From NCBI RefSeq assembly GCF_000219215.1, contig NC_015727.1, positions 62,001 to 126,000 of the forward strand: a stretch of DNA of 64,000 nucleotides. The letters are read 5' to 3'. The position numbers and the translations under genes are program-made. Each line of letters begins with the position of its first letter. Within the stretch, counting starts at the first letter, position 1. Shown piece by piece: positions 40,958-51,060 of the stretch. The stretch is from Cupriavidus necator N-1. GTDB taxonomy: Bacteria > Pseudomonadota > Gammaproteobacteria > Burkholderiales > Burkholderiaceae. Under the pieces are notes generated by a model, which worked only from the letters and a program-made list of their open reading frames with translations, searched no databases and was not told where the DNA came from.

Positions 40958-41512
40958 TTAGTCTCTCTGCTTCGTGAGTTGCTCGCGGATCTCGGATAAT
41001 TCCTTTTTCCGCTCGGCGGTCGTCTTCGGGTACTGCAATTTCAGTTCACCGAGGGTGTCGAGGATGATCTGCGACACGATCAGCCGGGCGTCCTCCTTGT
41101 CGTCGGCGGGTACTACGTACCAAGGCGCGAGTTCCGTGCTAGTCGCGCTCAGACATTTCTCGTACGCCGTCATGTATTTCGTCCAGAATTTTCGCTCCTC
41201 GACATCGGCCATGCTGAATTTCCAGTTCTTATTGGGATCGTCAATGCGCGCGAGAAAGCGCTTACGCTGTTCCTCCTTCGAAAGATGCAGGAAGAACTTC
41301 ACGACACGCGTGCCGTTACGGCAAAGATGGGCTTCCAAATCAGCTATCGAACGGTAGCGGCCATGCCAGAGGGATTCGCCAGAACCCGACACAAGCGATA
41401 GACCCTCGCCGCGAAGGATCTCGGGATGCACGCGAAGGATCAACACCTCCTCATAGTAAGAGCGGTTGAAGATGCCGATGCGGCCGCGTTCCGGCAATAT
41501 GCGCGCACCGCC
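40958..41512 (-). pseudogene. ppk2: C-terminal two thirds of polyphosphate kinase 2
   Basis: The minus-strand frame from about 41512 reads [20 protein letters not shown], then [54 protein letters not shown] and [20 protein letters not shown], the unmistakable PPK2 core including the lid and Walker B region. The Walker A part is absent. That part lies at 50782-51060 on the same strand, about 9.3 kb away. PPK2 makes GTP or ATP from polyphosphate; this fragment alone cannot work. A start at 41497 (MPERG) exists but gives a headless protein. Confidence 0.93.
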
Positions 41513-41902
41513 GCCTTGCTCCGGCCGTCGATCCGGAGACCGAAAGTGCCCCCTGGCCGAACTCAGACTGCGGCATGTTCTTCACCGCGCGCGAGGGATG
41601 CGGCTGTCGCGCGCGACGACGATCGAACTGGCGGTTGCCTGCAATCTCCGCAGGTCTTCGCAATCGCGGTGTCGGAAATAATAGGCGATCGACTAACTAT
41701 GAAAAATAGCCGAGTCACGGCATTATCGCAATTTGTCCAGTTGAGCAATATTGCCACTGGAACACTTCGGGGTCTCGGTTGCATTCCTACTGCCGAATAG
41801 AGGATGAGCGATCACGAACTGCAACGGCATGCCTGTGGTGGTCTAATTTCCTCGGACAGGTCGATAGGAGGACAATCCGGAATCGACGAGGAAAAAAGAT
41901 AG

Positions 41903-42199
41903 ATGACAAGAAGGCGCCGACAATTTGACGCCAGCTTCAAGCTGGAAGTAGTACGGATGGTGCGAGACCAAGGATTATCGGTCAGCGAGGTTTGCCGGTC
42001 GATGGAGCTTGGTGAGACGGCCGTTCGGCGCTGGATGGCGCAGTACGATGCAGAGTGCGCCGGCGGGCCTGGCGTGGGCAAGCCGCTGACGGCGGAACAG
42101 CAGCGCATCCGGCAACTGGAGGCGGAGAATCGGCAACTGCGCGAGGATAACGCCTTGCTAAAAAAAGCCTCGGCCTTCTTTGCGCGGGAACTGAAGTGA
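41903..42199 (+). CDS. IS3-family OrfA (helix-turn-helix protein)
   Basis: 98 residues: an N-terminal helix-turn-helix ([40 protein letters not shown]) and a C-terminal leucine-zipper-like helix ([20 protein letters not shown]). Near its end a slippery A7G run at 42160-42167 allows -1 frameshifting into orfB, whose frame is open across that point, producing the OrfAB transposase. Its stop overlaps the orfB GTG start. Confidence 0.95.
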
Positions 42200-43080
42200 G
42201 CTACCGGGTGGTAGCCCACTTGCAACAGGAGGCCGTATCGGTCAGTAACGCCTGCCGGGTATTGCAGGTGAGCCGCTCGGGCTACTATGCGCACCGCCGC
42301 GCCAAGCCAAGCATGAAGACTCTGCAGGAGCAGACCCACGTCAAAGCGGCGTTCGCTGCGAGCGGCGCGAGCTACGGCAGCCGGCGTGTCATGCATGCGG
42401 TGCGGGAACAAGGGGTGCGCCTTGGCCGCTACCGGATTCGTAGGCTGATGCGCGAAGCGGGCTTGCGTGCGACCTGGAAGCGTAAGTTCGTGTCGACGAC
42501 TGACAGCAAACACACTCTGCCAGTGGCAGAGAACGTGCTGAACCGGCAATTTGACGTGGCCGAGCCGAATCGGGCCTGGACTTCGGACATCACCTATGTC
42601 CGCACGGCCCAAGGCTGGCTGTATTTGGCTGTCGTGCTGGACTTGTACTCGCGCAAGGTCGTGGGCTGGTCGATGGCGCCGACCATGCCGGCCGACCTGG
42701 TGATGTCGGCACTGAGCATGGCGCTGCAGCAGCGAAGGCCAGCGCCGGGACTGGTGCTGCACTCGGATAGGGGCAGTCAGTACGCGAGCGCGGAGTATCA
42801 GGCCTTGCTGGCACGCCATCAGATTGTTTGCAGCATGAGTCGAAAAGGCAATTGCTGGGATAACGCGGTGACGGAACGGTTCTTCCTAAACCTGAAGATG
42901 GAGCGCGTGTGGCAGCGTCAATACGCCAACCACGCCGAGGCACGGCGCGACATCACCCAGTACATCGTTGGTTTCTATAATCCGGTGCGCTTGCACTCAA
43001 CCCTGGGGTATCTGTCGCCCGCTGCCTACGAGGCGAAATCGACAGAAAAAGAACCTATCTGCCTGTCCGAAATAACTTGA
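42196..43080 (+). CDS. IS3-family OrfB (DDE transposase)
   Basis: 294 residues if started at the GTG, or fused to OrfA by frameshifting at 42160-42167. The DDE set is visible: Asp in [20 protein letters not shown], Asp in [13 protein letters not shown], and Glu in [20 protein letters not shown]. It catalyses strand transfer of the element. Confidence 0.96.
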
Positions 43081-43252
43081 CCACTACACATGCCGCATGC
43101 GGGACACGCGCTCGCTCAGTACGTCGGGGAATGTCCTATGGCGGCCCAGCGATGTTCTGGCTCATCTTAGTAATCTGAAGCGCCCCCGCGAAGAGCAGTG
43201 GTACTTCGCCAGTTCCTTCGAACCAACGTGATACCGTTATTCTGCATAGCTA

Positions 43253-50152: not shown

Positions 50153-50263
50153 CGCGTGGCAACCGGCCTTACTGACTCATGCGTTCGGCCACAGCAATGC
50201 GGCCCTCTTTTCTGATTCTTCACGGAGCCGTGTGACCGCTTAAAGCATTGCATTACACACAAG

Positions 50264-50605
50264 TCACTCGTGACCAATTTCCCTGGCGTACTTGATGCCG
50301 GCGGCGAAGTCCATGACGCGTTGCAAGCCCTGCCAGATTGTCTTGACTCCCGGTTCGCCATCACCCTTGCGAGCGAGGAAGCCGCCGAGCCTGGCAATCA
50401 GACGAACCACTTCATTGAGGCTTGGCGGCGTCTCGGGCGGCTCCCCTTCCTGCTGAGAATGAACACCGCCTGCCATTCATCTCGCTCAAACAGCAATTGC
50501 GCTTCGAGCTCCGGGCAGGCGCGCCTCAGCCGCATTTAGCCGTGCGATGCGCCAGGCCGCCACCATGAACAATGCCAGCGCGCGTTCGAGCCGCTCCGAG
50601 CGACC
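50264..50605 (-). pseudogene. C-terminal remnant of an IS4/Tn5-type transposase
   Basis: Minus-strand pieces read LERALALFMVAAWRIARL (near 50600) and LNEVVRLIARLGGFLARKGD, GEPGVKTIWQGLQRVMDFAA, GIKYAREIG (to 50264), the conserved end of Tn5-like transposases, with frame changes between them. Only the last 110 or so residues remain, so it is inactive. Confidence 0.82.
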
Positions 50606-50611
50606 ACATCT

Positions 50612-50786
50612 GATGCCGGTCGGGCAGCCGTTCGACGGCTTTGTCGAGCACACCACGCGCGTCTCGCCGACCTGCTTGGTGACCTTCGAGCGCAACCGCT
50701 ACAGCGTACCCGCCTCGTTTGCCAACCGCCCCATCAGCCTGCGCGTCGATGCCGCGCGGCTCGTGTTCGTGGCCGAAGGCCACTGA
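50612..50786 (+). pseudogene. C-terminal remnant of an IS21 IstA transposase
   Basis: The plus-strand frame MPVGQPFDGFVEHTTRVSPT, CLVTFERNRYSVPASFANRP, ISLRVDAARLVFVAEGH matches the post-catalytic beta-barrel region of IS21 IstA proteins. It stops exactly where the ppk2 N-terminal half begins (50782), marking a recombination joint. Confidence 0.8.
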
Positions 50787-51060
50787 ACACCTGGCATCCC
50801 TGCGGGTTGACGCCCGACATGACGTGTTTGATGACGCCGTCCTTGCCCGCCGCATCCATTGCCTGGAAGATGAGGAGAACAGAGTAGCGGTTGTCCGCAT
50901 AGAGCAAACTTTGTAGCTTGCTGAGCCTCTCGATGTGCTCGGCTAGCAGAGTACGATACTGGTCCCTCGACCCGTGGAGGGGAGTCACGCGCGTCGGCCA
51001 TTTCGTAAGCAAAACCGTGTCGCCCTCACGCACTCGGAAATCGTCGGAATTGAAATTCAT
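50782..51060 (-). pseudogene. ppk2: N-terminal third of polyphosphate kinase 2
   Basis: From the ATG at 51060 (GGGAG upstream) the frame encodes SKLQSLLYADNRYSVLLIFQ, AMDAAGKDGVIKHVMSGVNP, QGCQVFS, the PPK2 beginning with its Walker A motif at residues 67-75. After residue 93 the sequence turns into IstA remnant in the opposite sense. The continuation is at 40958-41512; about 20 codons (family FKAPS...DFLWRY) are missing from both. This was one gene before the insertion or rearrangement. Confidence 0.93.

Follow-up and report, generated by a model that had tools for sequence, protein, structure and literature searches.

A gene whose halves lie kilobases apart resembles one into which an island has inserted. 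We asked whether this explains a class III polyphosphate kinase 2 gene (ppk2) of Cupriavidus necator N-1 that is present in two parts, a 5' part at 50783-51060 and a 3' part at 40958-41496, on the same strand and in the same order. Positions refer to a window of 64,000 nucleotides, the whole stretch of DNA that was analyzed. The first-pass annotation had proposed that an island landed inside the gene; however, one relative shows the near part of the intervening DNA already adjacent to an intact ppk2. The reading we favor, with a probability of roughly two in three, is that a working class III ppk2 beside sulP would have been destroyed by a local rearrangement in which blocks were swapped.

The two parts of ppk2 and an intact relative

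To identify related DNA, window 38000-54000 was compared with 72,556 plasmid records by megablast. The best match was plasmid p1 of Cupriavidus sp. KK10 (NZ_CP073678.1, about 700 kb), with 43% of the query covered; KK10 is placed in the C. necator group in the available part of a 2026 genus study (PMC12982536). On this plasmid ppk2 is uninterrupted and comprises 292 codons, flanked 3' by the AraC and GST genes and 5' by sulP. The Pfam PPK2 profile (PF03976) matched the KK10 gene and both window halves above the cut-off, covering profile positions 84-223 in frame 40958-41512 (E = 3.7e-42) and positions 3-71 in frame 50734-51060 (E = 1.6e-12). These data agree with the earlier view of one gene split into two halves that retain the strand and order of the intact 292-aa KK10 protein. 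The suggested search for an uninterrupted locus succeeded on the AraC side, where KK10 p1 carries the same gene with the same AraC/GST flank as the window; the other flank, the gene at 51301, had no match in KK10 p1 or in any other plasmid record searched. In contrast to KK10, where ppk2 is whole with sulP directly upstream, the window gene is split and reordered.

Alignment to KK10 also refined the extent of the halves. Both are real, but the 3' part ends at 41496 rather than 41512, and the 5' piece begins at 50783 and includes upstream DNA as far as 51104. Relative to KK10, 62 nt (~20.7 codons) are absent between them, in line with the 20 or so lost codons noted previously. The protein encoded by the 5' piece (residues 1-92) was identical to that of KK10, and 1 of 178 residues differed in the 3' piece (residues 115-292). 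At the DNA level the 3' part differed at 8 of 539 nt (98.5% identity), with seven of the eight changes silent, and the 5' piece at 3 of 322 nt (99.1% identity), one of which was coding and silent. These few and largely silent differences suggest that selection acted on ppk2 until recently and that little decay has followed. Nowhere in the window is ppk2 a single uninterrupted reading frame, and its Walker A and Walker B motifs are 9.3 kb apart. Descent of the halves from two different ppk2 parents was rejected, as both were nearest to the same KK10 gene among the sequences searched.

Table 1. Positions of the ppk2 parts, the DNA between them and the adjoining sequence in the window
Feature	Position	Strand	Remark
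ppk2 3' part, residues 115-292 and stop	40958..41496	-	Walker B RSYY and class III glutamate
Spacer, upstream of intact ppk2 in KK10 p1	41495..41833	.	Joined to 3' part by 412-bp deletion
IS3-family insertion (orfA, orfB)	41834..43088	+	Not found at this site in KK10
sulP with STAS domain, and downstream DNA	43089..45170	+	Next gene upstream of ppk2 in KK10; 98.6%
AbiEi/AbiEii pair and flanks	45152..47475	+	Two pieces in C. necator C39 p1
Second, truncated copy of sulP 3' end	47475..47890	+	Own repeat
Stretch with XRE gene and porin-like fragment	47801..50179	.	Second place in KK10 p1, 97.5%
IS4-family transposase gene scrap (Tn5 dimerisation domain), truncated	50232..50597	-	Pfam
IS21 istA gene scrap, abutting ppk2 piece	50598..50782	+	Pfam
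ppk2 5' part, residues 1-92, and 44 bp upstream; displaced piece	50783..51104	-	Walker A DAAGK
Sequence with the 51301 gene	51105..52044	-	Unmatched in PLSDB

The comparison with KK10 p1 was carried out by piece-by-piece alignment (locus L166). Window 22997-41496 corresponded to L166 1-18497 (99.4%), L166 18498-18559 had no counterpart in the window, and L166 18560-18881 corresponded to window 50783-51104 (99.1%). Further along, window 41495-41833 matched L166 18908-19247 (95.6%) and window 43089-45170 matched L166 19242-21323 (98.6%). The order in KK10 is AraC, ppk2 3' part, ppk2 5' part, spacer, sulP. The window differs in that a clean deletion of 412 bp brings the 3' part up against the KK10 upstream spacer and sulP; fusing KK10 18497 to 18910 yields exactly the joint seen in the window, with a 2-bp overlap (CA). 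Of the deleted 412 bp, 322 recur 9.3 kb away in the same orientation, and 62 and 28 nt were lost at the edges. No overlap was evident at the other readable joint (50782/50783).

Mismatches to KK10 numbered 1-4 per 500 bp over 36000-39000 and 8-9 from 39000 to the joint, a rise that lies near 39000, about 2.5 kb ahead of the joint, with no jump at the joint itself. Past it, the sulP block carried 29 mismatches in 2082 positions, and the 339-bp spacer, with 14 mismatches and one gap, was more diverged than its flanks. Two 612-bp stretches (32838-33449 and 36456-37067) each matched the other's KK10 counterpart at 99%, which indicates a repeat kept in both genomes. Beyond sulP and the intact ppk2, KK10 carries three consecutive Hsp20 genes, all supported by Pfam matches (L166 22064-23633); this stress cluster is absent from the window at this place.

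DNA between and beyond the parts

The intervening DNA had been regarded as foreign throughout. Part of it was added by other events, namely the IS3 copy, the AbiE pair and a piece that lies ~587 kb away in KK10, but 41495-41833 and 43089-45170 form the upstream neighborhood of KK10 ppk2. Pfam or PADLOC analysis supported the assignment of the IS3, SulP, AbiEi/AbiEii, XRE, IS4 (Tn5-dimerisation domain) and IS21 pieces. The porin fragment reported previously matched below the Pfam cut-off, and the reported nucleotidyltransferase was not recovered, with no Pfam or PADLOC match for frame 47972-48412 and no Pfam match for the overlapping frame 48166-48720. By eye, these two frames read as one frameshifted nucleotidyltransferase gene (47972-48720) containing a GSQSILG motif, which we take to be a sign of this family.

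The IS3 copy is bordered on both sides by the 6-bp repeat CATGCC, as read by eye. The AbiE pair matched C39 p1 as two segments (45152-47372, 97.6%; 47370-47475, 91.7%) that lie ~1.3 kb apart in C39 within surroundings that differ from those in the window. Direct copies of the sulP 3' end (44748-45170 and 47475-47890) flank the pair in the window, and the C39 copy has a similar GATAACG edge; there is a hint that the AbiEi/AbiEii pair could be a small mobile unit. The stretch at 47801-50179 is unbroken in KK10 p1, where it lies at the distant site given above. The three scraps that follow abut to the base, with the IS4-family scrap at 50232-50597, the IS21 istA scrap at 50598-50782 and the ppk2 piece at 50783-51104. 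Elsewhere in the window, an IS256-family element (8496-9871) is also found in KK10 p1 and in a C. metallidurans plasmid at 98-99%.

Beyond the displaced piece, 51080-52420 matched no plasmid record even in sensitive mode, and a near-mode comparison of 51105-64000 with the Cupriavidus plasmid records also gave no match. Among 60 genus genomes, seven (own included) had matches to 51100-56000; in three of the others these were long, began only at ~52413 and had 70-75% identity, and in three further genomes they spanned 37-43 bp. The hypothetical protein encoded at 51301-51939 had eight listed relatives besides its own entry in a set of 5.8 billion proteins (E 1e-3), none of them named and none with a Pfam domain.

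Origin of the present gene order

The proposal that an island landed inside ppk2 conflicts with KK10, where the spacer and sulP already adjoin the intact gene. For an insertion to hold, the KK10 sulP neighborhood would have to be coincidental or derived. Inserting a 9.3-kb block would yield the final order, mobile pieces occur within this block, and sulP beside this ppk2 is observed in KK10 only; however, apart from IS3, the initial 3.7 kb of the block borders the intact gene in KK10, the block begins precisely at the point where the KK10 upstream sequence resumes, and 62 nt were lost with no target duplication seen. An island is thus improbable, and a simple insertion was rejected because the neighbor is already present in KK10 and no target duplication was seen. 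Direct repeats or a target duplication at 41496 and 50783 were not detected (at least 20 bp by computation, shorter by eye), no tRNA was found in the window, and the 18 window frames scanned with Pfam contained no integrase other than IS transposases.

Under the favored rearrangement, three double-strand breaks would have occurred, one within ppk2, a second upstream of the gene and a third next to the IS21 scrap, and would have been rejoined with two neighboring blocks exchanged. The old order of 3' part, 5' part and spacer-to-IS21 block would then have become 3' part, block, 5' part. Movement of the 0.3-kb piece to the right or of the 9.3-kb block to the left would give an identical, indistinguishable order. 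This account assumes that the sequence from 51105 onward was the former right neighbor of the block, although no relative shows it there.

An alternative in which the ppk2 region was duplicated, or two versions recombined, after which one copy lost its 5' part and the other shrank to a 322-bp remnant, is unlikely, though somewhat less so than an island. This stretch also holds a duplicated sulP 3' end, and other gene scraps lie beside the remnant, so duplication and erosion do occur here. Against this, the remnant shares nothing with what the other copy kept: the displaced piece falls entirely within the deleted interval, and the chance of this for an independent remnant was 0.12 given overlap and 0.004 over 21.3 kb. 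In addition, own-genome matches to 1.6 kb around each edge (best five scored) were the place itself and other IS3 ends.

To determine how widely the old and new orders occur, we used the KK10 ppk2-spacer-sulP stretch as the query for a scan of 398 family genomes, scoring the best two candidates per genome. Matches were found in 71 genomes, own included, and 32 others matched across the lost 62 nt (as read from the match rows; some may be paralogues). The window's genome alone gave separate matches, ending and beginning at the break. When 60 genus genomes (own included) were scanned with each break edge and the best five candidates per genome were scored, no match crossed either joint except in the window's own genome. 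In the genus and family scans the spacer was found elsewhere only as short pieces of at most 57 bp. No match to the KK10 SulP or Hsp20 protein was detected near ppk2 at any of 80 loci examined (E 1e-10), so sulP as a neighbor of ppk2 is known in KK10 only. The old gene order rests on this one relative; distant intact ppk2 genes (G006, G012 and Caballeronia SBC2) have different neighbors and no bearing on the order. A literature search found no paper on a Cupriavidus ppk2 pseudogene.

A further alternative is a misjoined assembly, as the joints are known from this assembly only. However, the genome is in 4 contigs (8,480,857 bp, of which C4 is 1,499,175 bp), and the assembly would have to contain three independent misjoins of concordant orientation, including one that happened to create a clean deletion, which leaves this explanation highly improbable.

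For the local rearrangement, rejoining could have proceeded by Ku/LigD end joining. This step is suggested by the two readable joints, with an overlap of 2 bp or less, together with three Ku and three LigD genes that score over the cut-off and lie at corresponding positions on C1, C2 and C4; the ligase had two additional weaker matches in the genome. Among random 412-bp deletions, 17% would show a 2-bp overlap. The joints thus do not single out a mechanism, and Ku/LigD end joining is a plausible route rather than a proven one. The neighboring Ku and LigD genes lie at C1:2504373-2509836, C2:287026-289420 and C4:835053-837447, and the C2 and C4 sets had the same or nearly the same scores. Two other routes were rejected: movement by an IS21 copy end, as the scrap comes from the interior of istA and its sequence continues in other IS21 copies, and hairpin-driven deletion, as the DNA surrounding the deletion did not fold better than shuffled sequences (z = 0.19).

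Consequence of the split and comparison with known systems

Whole-genome analysis revealed five PPK2 places, namely three open genes on C3 and the two pieces on C4. According to the available parts of two papers, class III PPK2 enzymes carry Walker A DxxGK and Walker B RSxY followed by glutamate (PMC11641546, PMC8776046), and asparagine is the class I signature (PMC8776046 / PMC11641546). The intact KK10 gene has DAAGK at 69 and RSYY at 125 followed by E, and the window halves have the same residues, one motif each. A second class III gene kept in the genome reads RSHY then E, and two genes read RSWYN (by eye), which is class I; judged by sequence, the other class III gene and the two class I genes look intact. 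With Walker A and Walker B on separate pieces, a kinase is not expected from either half, and the loss of ppk2 function proposed at first is therefore still the expected outcome. As other PPK2 genes remain, the cell is probably little affected by this loss.

Genome wear of this kind is known already. The present case, resolved to the base, offers a precise natural example with which to ask if proteobacterial megaplasmids are reshaped by Ku/LigD end joining. The displaced piece lies at a spot where IS4, IS21 and ppk2 scraps meet end to end, on a megaplasmid of a host with three Ku-LigD sets. A doubtful but possible extension is that end joining cut out the 0.3-kb piece and pasted it 9 kb away with trimmed edges, which would amount, on a small scale, to a bacterial parallel to shattering and rejoining.

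The KK10 copy has the same motifs as the class III PPK2 enzymes of C. hutchinsonii (6AN9), M. ruber (5LC9) and B. cenocepacia (BcPPK2-III); in contrast, the window carries these motifs on two separate pieces. For the rearrangement itself, the closest likeness is to Streptomyces ambofaciens. In the available part of that report, repair of induced breaks yielded five insertions of the organism's own DNA of 30 bp to 18.8 kb, two of which (42 and 83 bp) came from close by (PMC5869714). The Cupriavidus event would resemble these in the insertion of own-DNA pieces, some from nearby, at breaks; it differs in that it concerns a megaplasmid and was deduced by comparison rather than induced (PMC5869714).
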